DNA of 64,000 nt from Ilumatobacteraceae bacterium (GTDB lineage: Bacteria > Actinomycetota > Acidimicrobiia > Acidimicrobiales > Ilumatobacteraceae): positions 62,001 through 126,000 of the forward strand of contig JALHOG010000003.1 in NCBI GenBank assembly GCA_022843125.1, read 5' to 3'. Positions 4,560-55,809 of the stretch are shown here, in pieces. The notes under the pieces were generated by a model. It was not told the DNA's origin. It saw nothing but the letters and a program-made list of their open reading frames with translations, and did not search any database. Both the position numbers and the translations under genes were made by a program. Numbering within the stretch: position 1 is the stretch's first letter; every line of letters begins with the position of its first letter.

Positions 4560-5102
4560 TCAGCTGGACCGGGAGGTGCTGACCTTGCGAACACCCGACG
4601 ACCCGACGGCCGCAACCTTCTTGGCGGGTGCCTTCTTCGCGGGTGCCTTCTTGGTCGGAGCCTTCTTGGCCGGTGCCTTCTTCGCGGGTGCCTTCTTCGC
4701 GGGTGCCTTCTTCGCTGGTGCCTTCTTGGCGGGAGCCTTCTTGGCGGGAGCCTTCTTGGCGGGAGCCTGAGCGGCTGGAGCAGCCGGAGCCTGCTTCGCG
4801 GCGCCTCGCTTCACGCGCTCCTCGAGGGCTTCGGCCAGCGATTCGATGCGATCCTCGACCTCGTCGAAGCGCTCGGAGAAGGCAGACAGCTGCTTGGACA
4901 CCTCGGCTTGAACGAGCTGCGCCACCCGCTCGGTGGTCTCCCGGCCACGCTCGAGCAACTGCGAGACGACCTTCTCAGCGTCCTTGCGCTGTACCTCACC
5001 CGACTTCACCAGACTCTTCACGAGCCCATCGGCTTGCTTGCGCGACATGTCGGTGAACTGCACACCCGCGTCGAGGAACTTCTTGACGGTTGAGTTTCCC
5101 AT
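4560..5102 (-). CDS. phasin-like / histone H1-like protein with KKAP-repeat tail
   Basis: This 180-residue protein has two parts. Residues 1-105 are a charged, largely helical domain ([20 protein letters not shown], then heptad-like segments such as [18 protein letters not shown]) resembling the phasin-family/PHA-granule-associated domain found in actinobacteria. Residues about 105-170 are Ala-Pro-Lys rich, with ten five-residue APAKK-type units like histone H1 tails and bacterial nucleoid proteins. Such tails bind nucleic acid or polyphosphate non-specifically. Either a granule-associated protein that tethers DNA or a nucleoid protein is possible. It is monocistronic-looking between the HAD phosphatase and tlyA genes. 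Confidence 0.75.
4616..4765 (-). repeat. 15-bp tandem repeats encoding APAKK units
   Basis: Ten near-identical 15-bp units (plus-strand core GCCTTCTT with a variable NGCGGG/NGTCGG part) encode ten consecutive APAKK pentapeptides, one of them APTKK. Third-position differences between units show they have diverged and are under coding constraint. Such an array can gain or lose units by slippage, so copy number may vary between strains. Confidence 0.85.
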
Positions 5103-7163: not shown

Positions 7164-9065
7164 TCAGCCGTTGATGAAGCTCTGCGTCAGCCAGGTCTTG
7201 TTGGCATAGTGAAAGCGCACGCTGTCGCCGGTCTGATTCAGATAGGCGTCGGTGTTCCAGTACCACCGGCCGCTGAACCAGACGCCGACGCACCCCCACA
7301 CGTCGCCCGGGCCGTACGTGCCGTTGCGCTCGTCCGTCTGGTTCAACCATGTGTAGACGCCCTCGTAGCACGCCCGCCACGACGCGTACGTGTAGTCGAG
7401 GTTGTAGGCGGTTGACCGGATCGCGTTGTCGGACTGGAACGCACCGGTGCCCGGGCTGGAACCGGACGGGCGGGTTCCGTGAAACGGCACTCGAACCTGT
7501 CCGACTCCGAAGGAGTCGCCGCCATCGCCATTGGTCGCCATGTACCAGTACGACTCTTTGATGATCTGCGCACGGGCGATGTCGACATCGATGCCCCACT
7601 TGCACGCGGCCCACTGGATGATCTCGTCGGTGGTGCCCGTGAAGTCGCCGTCGACCCTGCCGAAGCCGGGCCACTCACCTGTTCGGAAGCCGTTCGCGAA
7701 GCCTCGGGTGGCGTTCTGCGCGGCGTTCTCGGGGCGCACCTCGGCCGCTGATCGCACCCTCGTCGCGCACTGGGCACCGGACGGCAGGGCGGCGCCGACG
7801 GGGAGGGTCTCGAAGTCGCCCGAGCCTGCGGGCGGGCTGGTCGTCGTCGTGGTCGTCGTGGTCGTCGTGGTCGAGTAGGGATCGATCGTCGTGGTGGTGA
7901 CCGGGCCTGCGGTGTTGCTCCCTGCCACGTAGCCGACGACATCGAGCACGACGTGGATGCCGGTGCCGTTCGAGGTGAACGGTCGGATGCACAGCTCACC
8001 GGACCCCGACAGCTTGATCGTGGCCTGGTTGCTGCGGGTCATGCCGGGCCACATGTTGATCGTCGAGGCCAACGGCATCGTGCCGTCGCATGCCCACAGG
8101 GTGATGAAGCCCTCACCCTGGCTGTCTGTCGCGACGATGTTCACGGTGGCGCCGAGCGCTCGGGCAGGGACGTTCCCGCGTCCGGTCACCTGGAGACGTG
8201 CCGTCTGCCCCGAGTCGATGCGGCCCGACGATCCACCGAATCCGATCCGGCTGTCGAGAAGACGCGCCGGGGTGAGTGACCGCACCGAACCGCCGGTCAT
8301 GTACCCGAATGAGTCGACGATGACGTCGGTCTCGACCGACGAGACGACGCAGAGCGCACCACGGTCGAGCGCCGCGAAGGTGAGGTGGGCAACGACCTCG
8401 TTGCGCCGGAAGTTGACCGTGGACGCGTTCGAGGACGATCCGCACGGCTTCACGATCACGAACCCGTCGGCCGCCGGGAGCACGACCGTGACGTTGACGA
8501 CGCCGGCGGTCGCATTCTGCGGGATGCCGGGTGAGCCGGCGATCGTGACGCGCTGCTCGGTACCGGCCCGCAAGCGCGAGCCGGTGCGCGTGTCGAGCAG
8601 ACGGCTCGGTGCGATGCCCGTGACGTCGCCGTCGGTGGCGACTGCGGTCAAATCAGCGATTAGGTGGATGCGTGACGACGACGCGAAGCAGATGCCCGCG
8701 GACGTGTACTCGAGCACCACCATGTTGGGCACGGCACGGCCTGGTTCGAAGTTGACGACCGACGTGTCGGGGCGTTGCCGGTTGCACGGCCAGGCTGTGA
8801 CGACGCCAGGTGTCGAGGCATCGATCGTGGTCAGGTTGAGGAACACGGTCGTGGCGCCGGACACGGACACGGTGCCGAGACGAAGGGTGAGGGTTTCGCC
8901 CGCGTCGAGCTGCCCGCGGCGCGCACCCGTACCGTCACGGGTGTCGAGCACTCGCGTCGGCGAGATCATGTCGGTCGCGGCGCCAACCGATGCCGGCCGC
9001 GGCAGCACCAGGATCGATGCGGCCACGAGACCGGCGAGCAGGACGGCGCCGAGCGCACGCTTCAT
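7164..9065 (-). CDS. secreted repeat protein with C-terminal lysozyme/transglycosylase-like domain
   Basis: This 633-residue exported protein starts with a Sec signal peptide (basic MKR, hydrophobic core ending LPRPASVGA). Three copies of a roughly 120-residue module follow, each opening with R-[VL]-LDTR-x-G and ending in an IxDxxGY-like strand, at about residues 37-150, 155-265 and 270-385. A Thr/Pro-rich linker (TTTTIDPYS and a run of Thr, about 392-412) leads to a C-terminal domain (about 430-633). There a Glu in IIKESYWYM and an SFGVGQVR motif recall soluble lytic transglycosylase/goose lysozyme folds. The likely role is cell-wall remodelling or surface anchoring; peptidoglycan cleavage is inferred. 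A GAGAGGAGC ribosome site precedes ATG 9065. Confidence 0.8.
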   Translation of the reverse strand: MKRALGAVLLAGLVAASILVLPRPASVGAATDMISPTRVLDTRDGTGARRGQLDAGETLTLRLGTVSVSGATTVFLNLTTIDASTPGVVTAWPCNRQRPDTSVVNFEPGRAVPNMVVLEYTSAGICFASSSRIHLIADLTAVATDGDVTGIAPSRLLDTRTGSRLRAGTEQRVTIAGSPGIPQNATAGVVNVTVVLPAADGFVIVKPCGSSSNASTVNFRRNEVVAHLTFAALDRGALCVVSSVETDVIVDSFGYMTGGSVRSLTPARLLDSRIGFGGSSGRIDSGQTARLQVTGRGNVPARALGATVNIVATDSQGEGFITLWACDGTMPLASTINMWPGMTRSNQATIKLSGSGELCIRPFTSNGTGIHVVLDVVGYVAGSNTAGPVTTTTIDPYSTTTTTTTTTTTSPPAGSGDFETLPVGAALPSGAQCATRVRSAAEVRPENAAQNATRGFANGFRTGEWPGFGRVDGDFTGTTDEIIQWAACKWGIDVDIARAQIIKESYWYMATNGDGGDSFGVGQVRVPFHGTRPSGSSPGTGAFQSDNAIRSTAYNLDYTYASWRACYEGVYTWLNQTDERNGTYGPGDVWGCVGVWFSGRWYWNTDAYLNQTGDSVRFHYANKTWLTQSFING

Positions 9066-41935: not shown

Positions 41936-42916
41936 CTACGACGGCGGACTCGTCGTCCCGCGGGAAGGGGCCACCTCGGGTACCGACGTCCACACGACGG
42001 GGGAAGCGAGCGGCGCCGTGACCTGGAGCTGGAAGATGTCGGGTCGGTTGTAGTGGCCGACGACATCCAGGGCGAGCTGCTCCTCCGGGATCCTCGAGAG
42101 GTCGAGATCGGCGTAGATGATCGTCTCATCGTCGAACACCGGCTCGACGACCCACTCGCCGTCGGGACCGACCACTCCCGAGCCACCGCACAGGAGGATC
42201 TCTGAGTTGCGTGCCTCGAGAAAGTGGCGCATGGGAAAGCTCGTCGGGACGTCCTTCATCGACAGGACGGCGCCGACCGCGAGCACGAACGTGCGACCCT
42301 CGAACGCGTAGCTGCGCGCGGCGAGGTGGTGGAATGGCGGCACGTCGGGAAAGGCGGCGACGTGGATCTGCTCACCGAGGGAGTGCATGGCGAATCGGTT
42401 GAGGGGCATCCAGTGTTCCCAACAGATCGCCCCTCCCACTCGACCGGCCGGGGTCTCGTAGACGCTGAGTCCACGACCGTCGCCGAGGCCCCAGAAGAGA
42501 CGCTCCCCGTGGGTGGGCATCAGCTTGCGCCGCACGCCGAGGAGCTCGCCGGTGTCGCCGATGAAGATCTGGGAGTTGTAGAGCGAACCTCCCGAGAACT
42601 GCTCATCCCGCTCGTTCACACCCATCACGATCGTGACGCCTGATTCCCGTGCGGCGTCCTTGAGGACGGCCACCTCCGGTCCGGAAGCGGTCACCGACTC
42701 GTCGTGCAGCAGCCGGAACGTCTGCTTCACCTCCGGATCGTCCCAGCCCGCTGCACCTTGCACCCACAGGGGGTAGCACGGGATCCAGGTCTCGGGGAAC
42801 GCGATGAGTTCTGCGCCGTTCGCGGCTGCTTCCCGGATGACCGCGACCGCCTTGTCGACGGTCTTGGTCGTGTCGAGAAAGACCGGCGCAACCTGCGCCA
42901 GGGCGACCTTGGGCAT
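41936..42916 (-). CDS. nitrilase
   Basis: A 326-residue carbon-nitrogen hydrolase of the true nitrilase branch (nitrile to acid plus ammonia). The catalytic triad is visible: Glu42 in LIAFPETWIPCYP, Lys131 in GVRRKLMPTHGERLFW and Cys165 in VGGAICWEHWMPLNRF. The C-W-E-H/N sequence after the Cys and the HGERxxW segment distinguish nitrilases from amidases of the superfamily. Substrate preference (aryl, aliphatic or arylaceto) is not readable. GAGGAGCG precedes ATG 42916. Divergent from the nitrile hydratase operon across 148 bp, suggesting shared control. It may overlap in substrate with that operon. Confidence 0.93.
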   Translation of the reverse strand: MPKVALAQVAPVFLDTTKTVDKAVAVIREAAANGAELIAFPETWIPCYPLWVQGAAGWDDPEVKQTFRLLHDESVTASGPEVAVLKDAARESGVTIVMGVNERDEQFSGGSLYNSQIFIGDTGELLGVRRKLMPTHGERLFWGLGDGRGLSVYETPAGRVGGAICWEHWMPLNRFAMHSLGEQIHVAAFPDVPPFHHLAARSYAFEGRTFVLAVGAVLSMKDVPTSFPMRHFLEARNSEILLCGGSGVVGPDGEWVVEPVFDDETIIYADLDLSRIPEEQLALDVVGHYNRPDIFQLQVTAPLASPVVWTSVPEVAPSRGTTSPPS

Positions 42917-43064: not shown

Positions 43065-43781
43065 ATGCATGGGGTACACGATCTTGGCGGCGTCGAAGGA
43101 TTCGGGCCGGTCGTCCAGGAGCCCGACGAACCCGTCTTTCATGATGATTGGGAACGGGTCGTCTTCACGATGGTCCAGACGCTCGCCATCCATGGCCTCT
43201 TCGTGAGCGACAAGTTCCGCTACGGCGTCGAGCAGATGCCCGCCGTGCGGTATCTGACGTCCACGTACTACGAGCACTGGCTGTTCTCGTTGACCAAGCA
43301 CGCCATCGACGCCGGCATCGTCGACGCGGACGAGTTGGCGGACCGCACCCGCTACTACCGGGAGCACCCGGACGAGGTGGTTCCCCCTTCATCGAGGCCC
43401 GAGCTCGTGGACAGGCTCCGCCTGATGATCGAAGGCGACGAAGGCAGCAGGCGCGAGGTCACCGGCGAGGCGCGGTTCGCTGTCGGCGACGTGGTCCGGG
43501 TCCTGGATCACGCCTCGGTGACCCATACGCGCCGGGCTCGCTACGTGCGGGGCAGGGTCGGCACGGTGCTCCTGACCCACGGTGCGCATGTCTTCCCGGA
43601 CACCAGCGCGCTCGAGATGGGAGAGGATCCCGAGTTCGTCTACGCAGTCGAGTTCCTGGGCGACGTCTTGTGGCAGAGCGACGATCGGTCTGCCAACAGC
43701 CGCGTCATCATCGATCTGTGGGAGTCCTATCTCGAACCGGTCGACCACGCCACCACCGAACGGAGCCGCAGTGTCGGATGA
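43065..43781 (+). CDS. nthB: nitrile hydratase beta subunit
   Basis: Beta subunit of the hetero-oligomeric nitrile hydratase (nitrile plus water to amide). The 238-residue protein starts [16 protein letters not shown], the canonical beta N-terminus. It continues with [21 protein letters not shown]. The C-terminal SH3-like barrel holds [26 protein letters not shown] and a [11 protein letters not shown] strand near the end. Gene order beta-alpha-activator is that of cobalt-type systems. The end overlaps the alpha-subunit start by 11 bp. Confidence 0.96.
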
Positions 43782-44460
43782 CCATGACCACCATGACCAC
43801 CATGACCACCATGACCACCATGACCACCATGACCACCATGACCACCATGACCACCATGACCATGAGCACCATGACGCTGATGTGGTCGCTCGTGTCAAGG
43901 CGATGGAGTCGCTCCTCGTCGAGAAGGGTCTGCTGTCGTCAGATGCGGTGGATCTCGTGAGCGCCGTCTACGAGAACGCTGTCGGTCCGAAGCTCGGTGC
44001 CAAGGTGGTCGCACGAGCCTGGACCGATCCCGACTTCAAGGCGAGACTGCTCGCTGATGGCACGGCAGCCTGCCGCGAGCTCGGCATCAGCGGTATGCAG
44101 GGCGAGGAGATGATCGTGCTCGAGAACACCGACGACGTCCACAACATGATCGTGTGCACCCTCTGCTCGTGCTACCCGTGGCCGGTACTCGGACTCCCAC
44201 CCAACTGGTACAAGGATCCCGCGTATCGGTCGCGCGTCGTTCGCGAGCCGCGGAGGGTGGCAGCGGAGTTCGGATTGGAACTCCCGATGGAGGTCGAGAT
44301 CCGCGTGTGGGACAGCAGCGCGGAGCTCAGGTATTGGGTGCTCCCCCAGCGCCCTGCAGGCACGGACGGGCTCAGCGAGGACGAGCTCGCCGCGCTCGTG
44401 ACCCGAGACTCGATGGTCGGCGTTGCACAGGCCCTCGCCACCAGCAGCAGGTCGACATGA
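43771..44460 (+). CDS. nthA: nitrile hydratase alpha subunit, cobalt type, with His-rich N-terminal tail
   Basis: Catalytic, metal-binding subunit (229 residues). The metal site [20 protein letters not shown] has Cys129, Cys132 and Cys134; Thr between the first two cysteines and Tyr after the last mark the cobalt type (iron enzymes have CSLCSC-T). [17 protein letters not shown] follows, as usual. What is unusual is the N-terminus: after V-S-D, residues 4-36 are almost only His and Asp, with eight tandem DHH units and 20 histidines in total. The normal domain then begins at [18 protein letters not shown]. The tail is a likely cobalt-binding or metal-buffering element. GTG start at 43771 is inferred from the nthB overlap; an internal ATG start would lose the tail. 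Confidence 0.94.
43786..43857 (+). repeat. eight 9-bp tandem repeats encoding Asp-His-His
   Basis: Eight exact copies of GACCACCAT, flanked by partial copies, inside the start of the alpha-subunit gene. The units are identical to the base, including third positions, which points to recent expansion by slippage or to assembly uncertainty in copy number. Because the unit is 9 bp, length changes keep the frame. Confidence 0.95.
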
Positions 44461-44867
44461 CGAACCGTTTGCCGGCAGACCCGTCGCGCTCTCGACTGGA
44501 GCAGCTGGTGGGCGGCCTGCCGAGACCGGAGGTCCAGCCTCGCGATGGCGGCGACCTCGCGTTCGACGAGCCGTGGCAGCTCCGGGTGCTGGCCATCGCG
44601 GTGGTGTTGGCCGAGGCAGGCGAGTTCCGGTGGTCCGACTTCCAGGCGCAGCTCATCGCCGTGATCTCCGAGTGGGAGACCTCACCGCCCGAGACGCGAG
44701 GCGAGTGGGACTACTACGCGTTGTGGACCGCCGCACTTGAGCGGCTGCTGGCCGCCAAGCGGTTGCTGAGCTCGGACGCGCTCGAGGAACGCACGCACGA
44801 GGTGCTGGCCACGCCGGCGAACAAGGATCACCAGCAGGCCACGCGCCGACCCGTCGCCATCGCCTGA
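44457..44867 (+). CDS. nitrile hydratase activator / accessory protein (P14K-like)
   Basis: A 136-residue homologue of the beta-subunit N-terminal half. Such proteins carry cobalt to the alpha subunit by self-subunit swapping in Rhodococcus and Pseudomonas cobalt enzymes. [20 protein letters not shown], then [14 protein letters not shown] and [21 protein letters not shown], match that family. ATGA overlap with nthA couples its synthesis to the enzyme. It has no Cys-rich motif of its own, as in known activators. Confidence 0.9.
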
Positions 44868-44884: not shown

Positions 44885-46237
44885 TCAGGACGGCCGCCGC
44901 AGGTGCCAATCGGTCCGCGTCTGGTACTCGGTGGCGACCCGGAGCAAGACTGCCTCTTGATCCGGTGCGGCGCTGAGCTGGAACGCGCACGGAAGGCCGT
45001 CACCGGCGGTGCCCGACGGCAGCGAGATGGACGGGCAACCGACTGCGTTCCAGTAGCCGGTCCGTAGGGTCGAACCCCAACGGACCAAGTCGTCGCCCAG
45101 CTGATCGAGCTCCGGGGCCGTCGAGAGCACGCTCAGGCTCGCGATGACGTCGACCCGCGCCCACAAGTCCTGCAGCCGGGCGACCGCCTCAGCCCTGACA
45201 CGTTGGGCACGCACGTAGTCCGCAGCGGAGAAGAACGTGTGCCTGATGAGCGACGCGCGTGTCGACGGCGCGTACTCGCTGAACAGGCGGCTGGCACACG
45301 GGAGGTGGTAGGCCAAGGCTTCACCCTCGGCAACGATGCTGCCCGCAGCGAGGACATCCGCTTCCATCGGCAGACCGACCTCGATCGTCTCGGCCCCGGC
45401 TTCCTCCAACTCGCGCATCGCAGCGTCGAAGCGGTCGACGAGGGTGGGATCCGTCCCGACGTCGCTCGCTGGAGCGCAGACACCGACTCGGAGTCCGCGC
45501 AGTCCCCTCCCTTCCCCGACGTGCTCGATCGTGGTGGTCTTCCCAACTCCGGCCGGGCCCGCCATCACCGAGCACATGAGCTCACAATCGGCGGCCGAAG
45601 CAGCGATGGCACCCACATGATCGAGGCTGAAGGCCAGCGGCAACACGCCGTGCATGGAGATCTGACCGTAGGTCGGCATGAGGCCGGTGACCCCGCAGTA
45701 CGCAGCGGGGATCCGGATGCTGCCTCCGGTGTCTGTGCCCACGGCAGCCAAGAACATGCCGCTCGCGACCCCGCTCGCGGACCCCGAGCTCGACCCCCCC
45801 GCCCACCTCGTGAGGTCCCACGGGTTCCTCGGGATGGGGAACGGCCCGCCTCGATCGGGCAGTCCGTGGGCGTACTCCATCGTGGTGGTCTTCCCGACGA
45901 TCACCGCCCCGGCCGCCCGCAAACGTGCGACCACGTCCGCGTCGAACGGCTGAGTCCGTGGGTGCACCCGGCTCTGTGCCGTCGTCGCCGACTCCCGCGT
46001 CTCGATGATGTCCTTGATCGCGATGGGCAGTCCGTGGAGCGGGCCGAGCGACTCGCCGGAGGCGGTGGCGCGGTCCGCCTCGTCGGCGGCCGAGAGGGCC
46101 GCCTCGTCGAAGCGGGCCAGGAAGACACCAAGTTGCGCGTCCGCACGATCCGCGGCGGCGTGAGCCGCTGCGACCAGTTCTCGGCTCGACACCTCCCTGC
46201 TCTGTATCCGGCGTCTCGCCTCGACGAGTGTCGTCAC
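44885..46237 (-). CDS. amidase signature family amidase (first)
   Basis: A 450-residue Ser-cisSer-Lys amidase. Catalytic Lys is in GLPIAIKDIIETRESATT, the Gly/Ser-rich signature is GGSSSGSASGVASGMF, and the nucleophile Ser is in AVGTDTGGSIRIPAAYCG. Such enzymes hydrolyse the amide made by nitrile hydratase to acid and ammonia. Its ATG overlaps the next amidase's stop by 4 bp. The pair is convergent with the nitrile hydratase operon. GatA of the tRNA amidotransferase is unlikely given context and length. Confidence 0.9.
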   Translation of the reverse strand: MTTLVEARRRIQSREVSSRELVAAAHAAADRADAQLGVFLARFDEAALSAADEADRATASGESLGPLHGLPIAIKDIIETRESATTAQSRVHPRTQPFDADVVARLRAAGAVIVGKTTTMEYAHGLPDRGGPFPIPRNPWDLTRWAGGSSSGSASGVASGMFLAAVGTDTGGSIRIPAAYCGVTGLMPTYGQISMHGVLPLAFSLDHVGAIAASAADCELMCSVMAGPAGVGKTTTIEHVGEGRGLRGLRVGVCAPASDVGTDPTLVDRFDAAMRELEEAGAETIEVGLPMEADVLAAGSIVAEGEALAYHLPCASRLFSEYAPSTRASLIRHTFFSAADYVRAQRVRAEAVARLQDLWARVDVIASLSVLSTAPELDQLGDDLVRWGSTLRTGYWNAVGCPSISLPSGTAGDGLPCAFQLSAAPDQEAVLLRVATEYQTRTDWHLRRPS

Positions 46238-47658
46238 GATGACCAGACCGCGGGATCGGGCGACCGCAGATGCCAGTCGGTGTCGCGCTGCAGGAACGCA
46301 GCGACCCGGAGCACCAGGTCATCTGACCCGGACGCCGCCGCGATCTGCATCGCAACGGGCATGCTCTCATGGTCCACCCCGATGGGCACCGAGGCGACCG
46401 GGTTGCCGACGGCGTTCCAATACTTGGTGTGGATCGATCCGAGCTCGATCATCGCGGTCGCTGCTCGGCGCACGAGCTGCGCGTCGTTCCGCCAACTCGA
46501 GCCGGGCGCGAAGCCCGGATCCAGATCGGTGAGCGGCAATGCGCCGATGGTCGCCGTGGGCATCACGAGCACATCGACGTCGCGAAGCACGGCCGCCAGC
46601 TCGAGCTGCGCCCGACGTCGCACCTGCTGCGCCATGACGTAGTCGGCAGCGGTGAACGAGACCCCGGCGGCGATGATCCCGCGGGTGGAGGCGAAGTACT
46701 CGGACCAATGCTTCGAGAGTCGATCGCGGTGATGCTCGAGCGCCTCGCTGAGCAGGATGATGCTGACGGCCAGGCTCGCCTCTTCGTACAGCGGGATGGT
46801 CGCTCGCGCCACATGAGCCCCGCCCGAGCGGAGCACCTCGACCGCGTCGTCGTGCCTGTCCCAGAACCCGGGCGAGGAGTCCGACTGTGGCATCTCCACG
46901 ACTCCGATTCGGAGTCCCGCCAGGCCTGACCCCGGCTCGCCCATCGAGCCGGCACGGTCGTGTTCGACTCCGCGCATGACGTCCAGCAACAGCGCGCAGT
47001 CCTCGGCGGACCTCGCGATCGGGCCGACGTGGTCGAGCGATGTCGCCACCGGAAGGACTCCCCGGCAGGGAACGGAACCGAACGTCGGCTTGATCGTCGT
47101 GACGCCGCAGAAGGCAGCGGGGATCCGCAGGCTTCCGCCCGAATCAGTGCCGAGGCCACCGAGGGTGGCGCCGATGACGACCGCGCTGGCGGCGCCCGAG
47201 CTGGAACCGCCGGCCCATCGACCCGGGTCCCAGGGGTTCCGTGACACTGCGACATCTCGTGCCGGATCGGGATACCCGATCGCGAACTCCGTGGTCGTGG
47301 TGTGCCCGATGATGATCGCTCCAGCCGCACGGACGCGCGCGACGGCGTCCGCGTCGACGGCAACGGATTCAGCGGGCACCCTGCTGTGGCCGGCGGCGGC
47401 ACGCTCGCGGAGGCCGAAGAGGTCCTTCACTCCGAGAGGAATGCCGAGCAGCGGCGCGGCCGGTGATCTCCGCGAGCGGACTCGGTCGGCGGTTCGAGCG
47501 GCCGCCAGTGCGGACTCCCCGAAGGTGGCGACGAACACGCCGAGCGAGGCATTCGCCGACGCCGCCACATCGAGCGCCTGCTCGACCAACTCGACGCTGG
47601 ACATCTGGCCCGCATCGAGCGCCTGCTTCGTCCCGACGAGCGTGACGGGGGTCATCAC
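46234..47658 (-). CDS. amidase signature family amidase (second)
   Basis: A 474-residue paralogue of the neighbouring amidase. Lys is in GIPLGVKDLFGLRERA, the signature is GGSSSGAASAVVIGATLG, and the nucleophile Ser is in GLGTDSGGSLRIPAAFCG. The whole-length resemblance (shared TEFAIG/MEYAHG, RNPWDPGRWAGG/RNPWDLTRWAGG) suggests a local duplication followed by divergence. It overlaps the GatC-like gene by 4 bp upstream and the first amidase downstream, so all three are coupled. Confidence 0.9.
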   Translation of the reverse strand: MMTPVTLVGTKQALDAGQMSSVELVEQALDVAASANASLGVFVATFGESALAAARTADRVRSRRSPAAPLLGIPLGVKDLFGLRERAAAGHSRVPAESVAVDADAVARVRAAGAIIIGHTTTTEFAIGYPDPARDVAVSRNPWDPGRWAGGSSSGAASAVVIGATLGGLGTDSGGSLRIPAAFCGVTTIKPTFGSVPCRGVLPVATSLDHVGPIARSAEDCALLLDVMRGVEHDRAGSMGEPGSGLAGLRIGVVEMPQSDSSPGFWDRHDDAVEVLRSGGAHVARATIPLYEEASLAVSIILLSEALEHHRDRLSKHWSEYFASTRGIIAAGVSFTAADYVMAQQVRRRAQLELAAVLRDVDVLVMPTATIGALPLTDLDPGFAPGSSWRNDAQLVRRAATAMIELGSIHTKYWNAVGNPVASVPIGVDHESMPVAMQIAAASGSDDLVLRVAAFLQRDTDWHLRSPDPAVWSS

Positions 47659-47849
47659 TCTCCGCCGCGTGGGTCGAAGACGACTGCCGGCGCCACGCCG
47701 GACAGGTCGAGGCCGCGCAGTCGCTCGACCATGGCGCGTGCGTCACCGAAGGTCGATGCCAACGCATCCACTTCGTCGGACGGGACATCCAAGCCGTGCA
47801 TCTCCAGCAACGCCTGCACCAGTTCCCGCTCGCTCGGCGATTCGGTCAT
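47655..47849 (-). CDS. small GatC/AtzG-like amidase partner
   Basis: A 64-residue acidic helical protein (ERELVQALLEMHGLDVPSDE, then LASTFGDARAMVERLRGLDL, ending APAVVFDPRGGE). Its size, two-helix pattern, 'hydrophobic-FDP' end and location immediately before an amidase gene match the DUF4089/AtzG or GatC-like small subunits that wrap and stabilise amidases. ATG 47847-47849 is used; an upstream in-frame start would add 19 unlikely residues. Confidence 0.65.
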   Translation of the reverse strand: MTESPSERELVQALLEMHGLDVPSDEVDALASTFGDARAMVERLRGLDLSGVAPAVVFDPRGGE

Positions 47850-47892
47850 GGTCGCCCATCGCGGAGTACCGCCGGCGATGCATCCCGCCCGT

Positions 47893-49461
47893 TCACCGCT
47901 GACCAACCCAGTACGGATCGCGCAGTGCGGCCTTGTAGAGCTTGCCGGTGTCGAGGCGCGGGAGCGACTCCATGAAATCGAAGCTGCGCGGAACCTTGTA
48001 GCCGGCGAGTCGCTTTCGACAGTAGGACTCGAGTTCGGCTGCGAGACCGTCGGTCGCCTCGATGCCGGGAGCCGGCTGAACGACGGCCTTCACCTCCTCG
48101 CCGAAGTCGGGGTTGGGGACACCGAACACCGCCACGTCGGCCACCTTCGGGTGCAGTACCAGGACCGACTCGATGTCCTGCGGGTAGATGTTCACCCCGC
48201 CCGAGATGATCATGTACGCCTTGCGATCGCTGAGGTAGATGAAGCCTTCGTCGTCCATCCGACCGATGTCGCCGGCCGTGGCCCAACCGCGAGCGTCGTC
48301 CCGATTCGCGGACAGCGCTGCGTCGTCGCCGATGTAGGAGAACGGGAAGTCGCCCTCGAACCACAGCTCGCCCTCCTGCCCGGGCGGCAACACGTTCTTG
48401 TCGGCATCCACGATCCGCGGTGCACCCCACCCCGGGAGCGAGCGACCCACCGAGCCGGGGTGGGCCAGCCACTCGTGGCTGTCGATGAACGTGGCGCCGA
48501 TGAGTTCCGTCGAGGTGTAGTACTCGAAGAGCATCGGTCCCCACTCGGCGATCATCGCCCGCTTGACATCCTGGGGGCAGGGCGCCGCCGAGTGGATGAC
48601 CGCACGCAACGAGCTGATGTCGGCGGCCGCCCTGACGTCCGCCGACATCTTGAGGATGCGCACGAACATGGTCGGGACCATCTGGCAGTGCGTCACACGG
48701 TGCTGCTCGATCAGGTGCAGGGTCTGCTCCGGCACGAACTTCCTGGTGAACACGACGGTGCCGCCCCGCCGGTGGACGCCGACCGCCCAGCCCAAGGGAG
48801 CGGAGTGGTACAGCGGTGCCGACGACATGTAGACGTCGCCGTCACCGAACCCGACGAGCTCGAGAAACTCCAACGTGAGCGTGTCCGGGGCATCGCCCAA
48901 CTCACGCCGACCGAGCGGCGCTCGTCGAATTCCTTTGGGCGTGCCCGTACTCCCAGAGGAGTAGTACAGGAAGGCCCCTTCGTAGCCGTCGGGGATCGCT
49001 CTGGTCTCGAGTGACGATTCGACGGACTCGAACGACGTCCAGCCCTCCAGGTCGCCTCGAGCCAGCAGCCGAGTCGTGACCCTGGGGACCAGATCTGGGG
49101 TGAGAGCGGCGAGGTGGTCCTCCATCTCGCCGGTGCTGATGAGCGCGGCGGCACGCGAGTGGTTCAGGATCTGAGCGACCTCGTCCACCGTCAGGTGGTA
49201 GTTGATCGGCGTGAACTCCACGCCGGACCGTTGCAGCGCCCACACGATCGGAAAGACGTCGATGACATTGGGCAGCAGCACCGCGACCTGACTGCCGTGA
49301 CCGATCCCGTGTTCACGCAAGAGGTGCGCCCACCGGTTGGCACTGCCCTCGAGTTCCAGGTAGGTCAGGACCTGGTCGGTGTCCCCATCGATCACGGCCG
49401 GACGAGAGGGATGGACCTGCACGACCTGCGACGGATGGCTGAAAGGTGGCGCGAGTGTCAC
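47893..49461 (-). CDS. acyl-CoA synthetase (AMP-forming)
   Basis: A 522-residue adenylate-forming enzyme. P-loop is FLYYSSGSTGTPKGIRRA, A5 is LFEYYTSTELIGATF, A7 is RGWATAGDIGRMDDEGFIYL, and A10 has the catalytic Lys in LPRLDTGKLYKAALRDP. It would activate the acid released by the amidases or nitrilase as a CoA thioester; the chain type is unknown. Start GTG 49459-49461 overlaps the enoyl-CoA hydratase stop (GTGA). The frame remains open far upstream, but only through shifted hydratase sequence. Confidence 0.92.
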   Translation of the reverse strand: MTLAPPFSHPSQVVQVHPSRPAVIDGDTDQVLTYLELEGSANRWAHLLREHGIGHGSQVAVLLPNVIDVFPIVWALQRSGVEFTPINYHLTVDEVAQILNHSRAAALISTGEMEDHLAALTPDLVPRVTTRLLARGDLEGWTSFESVESSLETRAIPDGYEGAFLYYSSGSTGTPKGIRRAPLGRRELGDAPDTLTLEFLELVGFGDGDVYMSSAPLYHSAPLGWAVGVHRRGGTVVFTRKFVPEQTLHLIEQHRVTHCQMVPTMFVRILKMSADVRAAADISSLRAVIHSAAPCPQDVKRAMIAEWGPMLFEYYTSTELIGATFIDSHEWLAHPGSVGRSLPGWGAPRIVDADKNVLPPGQEGELWFEGDFPFSYIGDDAALSANRDDARGWATAGDIGRMDDEGFIYLSDRKAYMIISGGVNIYPQDIESVLVLHPKVADVAVFGVPNPDFGEEVKAVVQPAPGIEATDGLAAELESYCRKRLAGYKVPRSFDFMESLPRLDTGKLYKAALRDPYWVGQR

Positions 49462-54505: not shown

Positions 54506-55693
54506 TCAACTGATGCCGGCCTCGGCGCAGGCGTCGGCGAAGTCGGCGGTGCAGATCTCGGCCGCGGTGTAGACACCCGTGTCGATGAGCTCGGCCTTCA
54601 TGTTCGAGATCGTGATCGAGATCGGGTCGGGCGGCAGGATCAGCGGGATCTCGCCGACGTTGTTCGCCAGCGTGCCCGTCGTTGCCGGCGTCCCGCCGGC
54701 GACGAGTTCGGATACGACCGCGGCTGCAGCCGTGGCAATGTTGGACGGCGAGTTGTACAGCGATGTGAGCTGCTCCCCCACCAAAATGCGCTGGAGAGCT
54801 GAGACCTCGGCATCCATGCCGGTGATCGGCGGGAACTCCGTCACCCCGGCGGACTTGAGCGCTGCGATGACGCCGCCCGCCATGCCGTCGTTCATCGCAT
54901 AGACGCCAGCGATGTTCTCCGCACCCAAGGCGGTGATCGCCTGGTCCATCGCCAGTTGAGCCTCGGCCGGGTCCCAGTTCTTGATGTTGAACTCGCGAGC
55001 GATGTTCGGAGTGCCCAACGCTTCGACCGCCCCTTCTCGAACGAACGGCACGGCGGCGGTGGTCTCGTCCCCGAGGATGAAGACCAGCTGACCATCGGAC
55101 TGGCCGTTGGCCTCCAAGGCGGCCGCGAGGGCCTGGCCGTTGATCTGACCCAGCTGGTTCAACGAGAAGCTCACGGTGTAGTCGACCGGGCCGTCGGGGT
55201 TGCGGTCGTATCCGATGACCGTGACGCCGGCATCCTTGGCCGCCGAGACGATCGCCGCCGCCGCCGCTCCGTCAACCGGGTTGAGCACGAGGTACTCGAT
55301 GCCCTGGGCGATCATCGACTCCGCCTGGGTCTGCTGCAACGCAGCGTCGTTTTCTGCGTTGGCGTACAGCAACTCGCACTGCGGACAGCCCGCCGCCAGC
55401 TGCTCTTCGAAGACAGGTCGGTCGAACTTTTCGTAACGAACCGTCTGGTTCTCCGAGAGGAGGAACCCGACCTTCACCGCCTCCGCTGCTGCGGGCGCGG
55501 ACGTCGTGTCAGCTGCGGGCGCGGACGTCGTCTCTGCTGCGGGCGGGGACGTCGTCTCTGCTGCGGGCGCGGATGTCGCCTCGCTCGGGGCAGCGGTGCT
55601 GTCGCTGTCACCCTCACCGCTGGACCCGCACGCTGCGAGCGCGAGCGCCGCGGCTGCGAATAGTGCGAACTGCGCCTTGTTGGCCTTCATCAT
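54506..55693 (-). CDS. ABC transporter sugar-type substrate-binding lipoprotein
   Basis: A 395-residue periplasmic-binding-protein-like lipoprotein. The signal peptide ends in a lipobox (FALFAAAALALAACGSSGEG, Cys at about 22). A Ala/Pro/Thr/Ser-rich linker contains near-repeats of APAAETTS (about 32-65), then comes the type I sugar-binding fold (VKVGFLLSENQTVRYEKFDR, MIAQGIEYLVLNPVDG, VTVIGYDRNP). The closest pattern is XylF/RbsB-like. It delivers ligand to the permease/ATPase encoded downstream. GGAGAGG lies before the double ATG. Confidence 0.92.
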   Translation of the reverse strand: MMKANKAQFALFAAAALALAACGSSGEGDSDSTAAPSEATSAPAAETTSPPAAETTSAPAADTTSAPAAAEAVKVGFLLSENQTVRYEKFDRPVFEEQLAAGCPQCELLYANAENDAALQQTQAESMIAQGIEYLVLNPVDGAAAAAIVSAAKDAGVTVIGYDRNPDGPVDYTVSFSLNQLGQINGQALAAALEANGQSDGQLVFILGDETTAAVPFVREGAVEALGTPNIAREFNIKNWDPAEAQLAMDQAITALGAENIAGVYAMNDGMAGGVIAALKSAGVTEFPPITGMDAEVSALQRILVGEQLTSLYNSPSNIATAAAAVVSELVAGGTPATTGTLANNVGEIPLILPPDPISITISNMKAELIDTGVYTAAEICTADFADACAEAGIS

Positions 55694-55782
55694 CGGTTTC
55701 CTCTCCGGGGATCGGCTACCCCGAACGCTGAGCGGGAGGGGCTGCGGCACTCTCTTGGTCGACAGGGAAACATAGAGCAGAG

Positions 55783-55809
55783 AATGCATGAAAGCAAGAC
55801 TCACGCATT
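55783..55809. promoter_or_regulatory. imperfect inverted repeat upstream of binding-protein gene
   Basis: AATGCATGAA (55783-55792) and CTCACGCATT (55800-55809) are complementary at 8 of 10 positions around a 7-bp spacer, in an AT-richer 127-bp gap before the ABC operon. It contains the ATGCATGA element seen at the other island promoters. The rest of the gap shows no gene; the glycosidase stop is at its far end. Confidence 0.4.

Follow-up and report, generated by a model that had tools for sequence, protein, structure and literature searches.

Nitrile hydratases (NHases) fall into cobalt and iron types, which are separated in sequence by a VCT/VCS rule (PMC3323583), and the usual gene order of the Co-type is beta-alpha-activator (PMC7193024). 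The alpha subunit contacts both beta and the activator during maturation, and the review reporting these contacts treats the route of cobalt acquisition, by subunit swapping or by direct delivery from the activator, as undecided (PMC7193024). For the split-beta NHase of Streptomyces canus, AnhD complexed with alpha has been described as both a swapping and a metal chaperone (PMC7329996).

The beta-alpha fused NHases of opisthokonts contain a His-rich linker, given as 17 residues in Monosiga brevicollis, 12 in T. trahens and 11 in S. arctica, and two more fused NHases of opisthokont type have His-rich stretches of 5 and 2 residues (PMC3323583). The remaining eukaryotes named in that study mostly have other linker repeats, with serine-histidine ones in B. 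natans, and a bootstrap support of 100% separates the clade of eukaryotic-type sequences from that of the prokaryotic-type ones (PMC3323583). According to the review cited above, metal incorporation does not depend on the Monosiga (His)17 linker and the activator of the fused enzyme is still undiscovered (PMC7193024). Outside the NHases, HypB of Bradyrhizobium japonicum has 24 His near its N-terminus and binds 9 Ni(II) per monomer (Kd 2.3 uM) and also Co(II); storage or buffering has been suggested as the role of this tail, yet the role is called unknown (PMC7055735). H. pylori HspA, with its extension rich in His and Cys, offers a comparable example (PMC3856676), and in COG0523/UreG a His stretch, found in some homologues only, has a proposed metallochaperone role (PMC2770081). 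A search of open-access papers on nitrile hydratase yielded no account of a His-rich tail on bacterial alpha subunits.

A cobalt-type nitrile hydratase operon with a histidine-rich alpha subunit

The window, a 64,000-nucleotide stretch of an Ilumatobacteraceae genome, carries a complete NHase operon in the order beta-alpha-activator. On the plus strand, a 238-residue beta subunit (43065..43781; PF21006 and PF02211; TIGR03888, 228.9 bits, model 1-226/226) precedes a 229-residue Co-type alpha subunit with a GTG start (43771..44460; PF02979, 300.3 bits; TIGR01323, 307.4 bits), and directly 3' of alpha lies the gene for a 136-residue accessory protein, a P14K-like activator (44457..44867; PF21006; TIGR03889, 71.2 bits, cut-off 46). 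All three proteins exceed the curated NCBIfam cut-offs of their TIGR models. The genes are separate, with no beta-alpha fusion: the beta stop lies at 43779-43781 and alpha is read from 43771 in another frame, so that beta and alpha overlap by 11 bp, while alpha and the accessory gene overlap by 4 bp. Residues 128-134 of alpha read VCTLCSC, the Co-type signature (T where the Fe-type has S), and the CTLCSC cobalt-site motif (residues 129-134; 44155..44172, plus strand) is invariant in a 34-row alignment. By family models, motif and gene order, the locus is classed as an ordinary beta-alpha-activator operon for a predicted Co-type NHase; the cobalt type agrees with the first-pass annotation. A carbon-nitrogen hydrolase (41936-42916) and two amidases (44885-46237 and 46234-47658), all encoded on the minus strand, lie nearby, a neighbourhood consistent with nitrile use. 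A small 83-residue ORF on the minus strand (47655-47906), with no Pfam match, overlaps an amidase gene.

The alpha subunit begins with a His/Asp-rich N-terminal tail (codons 1-36; 43771..43878, plus strand). Its first 40 residues include 20 His and 13 Asp, with all 20 His within the first 34 residues, and the D/H-rich stretch spans residues 3-35, close to the 4-36 first described. At the DNA level, TRF identified a perfect 9-bp tandem array of 82 bp (43781..43862, plus strand; 9.1 copies, 100% matches), in which eight exact GACCACCAT copies (43786-43857; starts 43786, 43795 ... 43849) encode the DHH units of residues 6-29. Since the array is perfect at period 9, the window repeat is not due to chance. 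The eight copies, the 20 His and the position of the stretch at the beta/alpha gene junction were thus all as originally noted. Both the Monosiga-type enzymes and the window have a His-rich stretch between the beta and alpha parts, but the former are single fused proteins, whereas the window has overlapping separate genes plus an activator.

Three other repeat arrays occur in minus-strand ORFs of the window. A 15-bp array of 10 copies (4616-4768; ORF 4560-5102) encodes a PAKKA-repeat C-terminus, a 24-bp array (55486-55589; ORF 54506-55804) a TTSAPAAE-type linker in a protein that by eye resembles a sugar-binding lipoprotein, and a 9-bp array (7843-7873; ORF 7164-9065) a Thr-rich linker.

The assignment of the alpha start to GTG 43771 appears sound. 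A GGAG Shine-Dalgarno-like site inside the 3' end of beta (43762..43765, plus strand) lies 5 nt before this GTG, and neither of the later in-frame starts, GTG 43882 and ATG 43903, has a Shine-Dalgarno match. In an AlphaFold2 model of alpha alone (34-row alignment), residues 1-33 are without helix or strand and the first predicted helix spans residues 34-51; the pLDDT is 55, 61 and 56 over the residue blocks of 1-30 and 91 from residue 41. The tail is therefore predicted to be flexible and unstructured. RNA of the repeat stretch folds somewhat better than shuffled sequences (z -2.78, 1/200 as good), which we attribute to the CATG of each unit, a self-complementary sequence, and an RNA-level role of the repeat was rejected. 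Phase variation by the repeat was ruled out because the 9-bp unit preserves the frame.

Histidine- and aspartate-rich tails among alpha subunits

To survey the tails, alpha subunits were gathered from the genome, genus, class and phylum of the window, from an alphaproteobacterial and a gammaproteobacterial class and from 80 named contigs; for the two proteobacterial classes, and for the Burkholderiaceae searched in addition, the name was deduced from the organisms of L056 and L054. The 80 named loci are the best 80 of 591 found with the pattern VCTLCSCY, which selects the Co-type. The 292 alpha reading frames were reduced to 288 by dropping four without an N-region and to 276 by removing near-copies at 95% ungapped identity; three full-length and one partial alpha, two near-complete ones, two others and fragments were left out. 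Each alpha was scored by the maximum number of His per 20 residues in the region from an in-frame start to the conserved arginine of R(V/A)KALE; starts were chosen by our own Shine-Dalgarno score.

Scores from 0 to 14 were obtained for 29, 25, 25, 48, 38, 31, 29, 15, 8, 13, 8, 3, 1, 2 and 1 of the 276 alphas, respectively. At least 3 His per 20 residues are thus present in 197, at least 5 in 111 and at least 8 in 36, while 79 have at most 2. With 14 His per 20 residues the window alpha ranks first, and its total of 20 tail His is also the highest, followed by 18 in L075 (Longimicrobiales) and in L018. Its tail is not the longest in residues (51 in L018, 54 in L287), and the exact tandem of L018 is longer as well (90 bp, period 33). 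The window tail is the most His-rich surveyed case of a widespread, fast-evolving His/Asp-rich N-terminal tail. The first-pass annotation had held that usual alphas lack such a tail; the survey does not support this in general, but it does hold for the clade to which the window alpha belongs, described below.

The share of alphas with at least 3 His varies by source, being 22/28 in the window genome, genus and class, 31/50 in the phylum, 92/104 in the alphaproteobacterial class, 7/14 in the gammaproteobacterial class and 45/80 among the named contigs (best 80 of 591), so that the survey total leans on alphaproteobacteria. When searches of the window's family and of Burkholderiaceae and six plasmid loci were added, 219 of 319 alphas reached this threshold, as did 108 of the 158 clusters formed from this enlarged set at 75% identity. 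Among eight further plasmid alphas inspected by eye, six hold at most 2 His in the tail; two of the eight have clear tails, those of the haloarchaeon Halalkalicoccus (L359) and of Parageobacillus (L362). Two haloarchaeal alphas were examined: L359 has a long tail rich in His, Asp and Glu, and L358 has none. Since many alphas are tail-poor (79 of the 276, among them the 17 clade-mates of the window, and 6 of the 8 plasmid alphas), the tail is not required.

The Fe-type alphas compared as a negative control, five sequences of a single Burkholderia lineage, have 0-1 His. The motif carries S in four of the 276 alphas (L024, L160, L238 and L291), two of which, L024 with 5 His and L238 with none, sit by eye among Co-type-like relatives. 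The window's genome encodes a second NHase (L002, G000:C23) of the alpha-beta kind, with an 8-His tail of its own and, by eye, an accessory gene. Tails of this composition, built from differing units and codons, recur in loci of the alpha-beta, the beta-alpha and the split-beta order. They are less frequent in beta-alpha than in alpha-beta loci (at least 3 His in 27/72 vs 85/99), but only 2 supported independent pairs underlie this association, so descent may explain it, and a tie between tail and gene order was rejected.

His makes up a fraction of 0.180 in the 276 N-tails compared with 0.014 in the cores, 0.004 in the alpha C-tails (delimitable in 147 of the 276) and 0.017 in 166 activator N-termini. 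It is by far the most enriched tail residue; Asp is enriched as well (0.133 vs 0.060 in cores), and Glu and Lys equal the activator N-termini. With the start picked by Shine-Dalgarno score, 69.9% of tails reach at least 3 His per 20 residues, whereas 0.6% would be expected at 1.7% His. Most of the richest tails lack a long exact tandem: of the 43 that contain at least 8 His, 34 gave none above 24 bp when eight periods of 3-36 bp were tried, and in L075, with its 18 His, the longest exact repeat is 9 bp. The His codons are mixed, with CAT the main one in 6 of 8 tailed alphas whose core GC3 is below 0.5 and with a CAC share that climbs weakly with core GC3 (rho 0.27, p 0.0015, n=141). Thus, DNA slippage alone does not account for the shared composition, and what the tails have in common is a peptide composition and not a single DNA repeat. 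We infer that a His/Asp-rich tail has probably been selected for on NHase alphas.

Descent of the tail and its relation to the activator

On a FastTree tree of 290 rows, the state of at least 3 His requires 36 changes, compared with 68-80 in 20 label shuffles; with 108 of the 287 inner branches weakly supported, the tail state appears to be inherited but often changing. In a maximum-likelihood tree of 40 rows, built from the 34 closest rows of the FastTree tree and chosen outgroups, the window alpha is sister to that of Prauserella halophila (L032; 72% identity, support 98/95), and both belong to a clade of 18 rows (99/94) in which the 17 members besides the window alpha have 0-2 His. Given these tail-poor clade-mates, the window tail is, as far as sampled, a lineage-specific expansion. 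An orthologue in which the copy number could be tracked was sought in 221 genomes of the window's family, and none above 66% identity was found. The perfect repeat suggests slippage as the origin of the array, and since a 9-bp unit preserves the frame, slippage can lengthen the tail while the gene stays intact. Elsewhere in the survey, L304 and L308, with 94% core identity, have 7.7 and 10.5 exact 6-bp copies, about three GACCAC units apart. As far as sampled, the window tail would thus be a slippage expansion in one lineage that converges on a widespread tail type.

In alpha-beta loci, an activator was detected in 46/48 with at least 5 His, 35/37 with 3-4 and 8/13 with at most 2; the corresponding counts in beta-alpha loci are 6/12, 12/14 and 37/44, where each of the six activator-less loci with at least 5 His is divergent in its core (LEIA.., M.TA..). 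In 102 loci no full-length beta was recognised, 83 of them with at least 3 His and 12 with a detected activator. The three of these that were inspected by eye (L249, L129 and L021), each with a His-rich tail, have a beta split into N and C halves and no adjoining activator, a three-gene layout that resembles AnhD/AnhE/AnhA of Streptomyces canus. Across the 263 loci with enough flank, at least 3 His are present in 105/158 with an activator and in 84/105 without one, where divergent activators missed by the model count as absent; this raw table leans towards the tail replacing the activator. The comparison of 5 supported independent pairs, which is underpowered, shows no such trade-off: at the threshold of at least 3 His, the tail goes with the activator in 2.4 pairs, against it in 0.1 and makes no difference in 2.5, and at the threshold of at least 5 His the values are 1.4, 0.9 and 2.7. 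In this weak comparative test, a replacement of the activator by the tail is not supported.

Several tail-poor plasmid NHases (L323, L324, L361 and L364) adjoin cobalt/nickel importer genes, annotated as members of the CbtB, HupE and NixA families. The idea that the tail substitutes for a linked cobalt importer was dropped, as this plasmid hint failed in a count of 63 loci out of the best 80 of 591 (the others had less than 2.5 kb on one side), in which a match to four seed proteins was found in 1/28 tail-poor, 1/17 middle and 0/18 rich loci.

Possible roles of the tail

Together, our results and the analogy with known metal-binding tails suggest that the tail may be a disordered Co(II)-binding arm that aids cobalt loading beside the activator, a reading that we place slightly on the favourable side of even. 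The disordered tail would bind several Co(II) ions loosely, as the HypB N-terminus does Ni(II), Co(II) and other ions, and the bound cobalt would raise the local supply around newly made alpha or alpha-activator complexes. In this way the tail would aid loading when cobalt is scarce, being helpful rather than essential. A metal arm had been proposed in the first-pass annotation, and the idea stands as an interpretation of a composition strongly and repeatedly biased to His/Asp. Because the Monosiga linker is reported to be dispensable and many relatives are tail-poor, a helpful arm is what would be expected, with its effect most visible at scarce cobalt. HypB and the window alpha share a long N-terminal His-rich tail and a tie to metallocentre assembly; however, HypB is a hydrogenase assembly protein, whereas the window tail sits on a subunit of the metalloenzyme. 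COG0523/UreG is a different family, in which the stretch may stand in for UreE, whereas the window retains its activator. A counterpart among the NHases is the alpha subunit of PDB 3QXE, the P. putida enzyme, which has SHTHDHHHD at the corresponding N-terminal place. Both are Co-type alphas with an N-terminal His/Asp stretch ahead of the same fold, but 3QXE has 5 His where the window has 20, and it has no tandem array.

An unlikely but serious alternative is that the tail expanded neutrally: 9-bp slippage would have lengthened a short seed of His/Asp residues in the disordered N-terminus, harmlessly and to a length that has no function. The perfect array, the copy-number difference between L304 and L308, and the low-complexity tails or linkers encoded by the three other coding arrays of the window would all fit such a history, the start of the sister L032 (MSLEHDIHP) could be the seed, and the Monosiga linker is reported to be dispensable (PMC7193024). 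However, tails of this His/Asp composition turn up repeatedly in different phyla, are written with mixed codons and in most cases lack long exact repeats; no enrichment of His is seen in alpha C-tails or at the N-termini of activators. Neutrality would thus account better for the extra length of the window tail than for the shared trait. We regard it as improbable that the tail is functional but serves something other than metal storage, as a charged arm that docks to beta or the activator, keeps the protein soluble or responds to pH. Asp is indeed enriched along with His, and alpha contacts both partners while maturing (PMC7193024). Such a role sits poorly with the strong preference for His over other residues, with Glu and Lys at the level of activator N-termini, with a tail too variable in sequence and length for a specific contact and with the lack of structure in the AlphaFold2 model of alpha alone, without partners.

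It is very improbable that the tail replaces the activator, as the His stretches of UreG are thought to compensate for a missing UreE (PMC2770081). The split-beta NHase of Streptomyces canus, whose layout the three tailed loci without an adjoining activator resemble, uses AnhD as a chaperone (PMC7329996). Those three loci, the raw table and the 6 of 12 His-rich beta-alpha loci in which no activator was detected favour replacement, but an activator adjoins the window alpha and nearly all alpha-beta loci with at least 5 His, and the independent pairs show no trade-off. The suggestion in the first-pass annotation that the tail may take over part of the activator's job thus found no support, within the limits of an underpowered test. 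Very improbable, too, is an artefact, by which translation would start after the repeats or the copy number would be an assembly error. Two in-frame starts do exist downstream and the assembly is a draft in 183 contigs, but GTG 43771 is the only candidate start with a well-placed Shine-Dalgarno site and many relatives have a start preceded by such a site ahead of the tail; the array, moreover, spans only 82 bp, which is less than the usual sequencing read length.

Returning to the cobalt-binding arm, it is tempting to speculate, with somewhat less than even confidence, that Co-type NHases carry their own metal-capture arm, that alpha is partly its own cobalt-gathering chaperone, that the tail is gained, lost and re-grown many times via repeat expansion, and that the opisthokont linker is such a tail caught between fused subunits. 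The tail belongs to alpha in either gene order; its position at the beta/alpha junction therefore follows from the beta-alpha order, and if beta and a tailed alpha became fused in a beta-alpha operon, exactly such a linker would result. That the eukaryotic linker comes from the window gene itself, a descent that the first-pass annotation had entertained, is unlikely, since the tail of this gene appears to have grown in a bacterial clade that is otherwise tail-poor.

There may be nothing specifically eukaryotic about the Monosiga His linker. NHase is used industrially and needs cobalt loading for its activity, and the recurrent His/Asp tail of alpha may be a cheap, testable extra element in that loading. 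The tailed window enzyme and its tail-poor Prauserella and Pseudonocardia kin offer a clean comparison. If the metal-capture reading is true, the window gene would be a natural experiment, its tail being the most His-rich one and its clade one that lacks tails.
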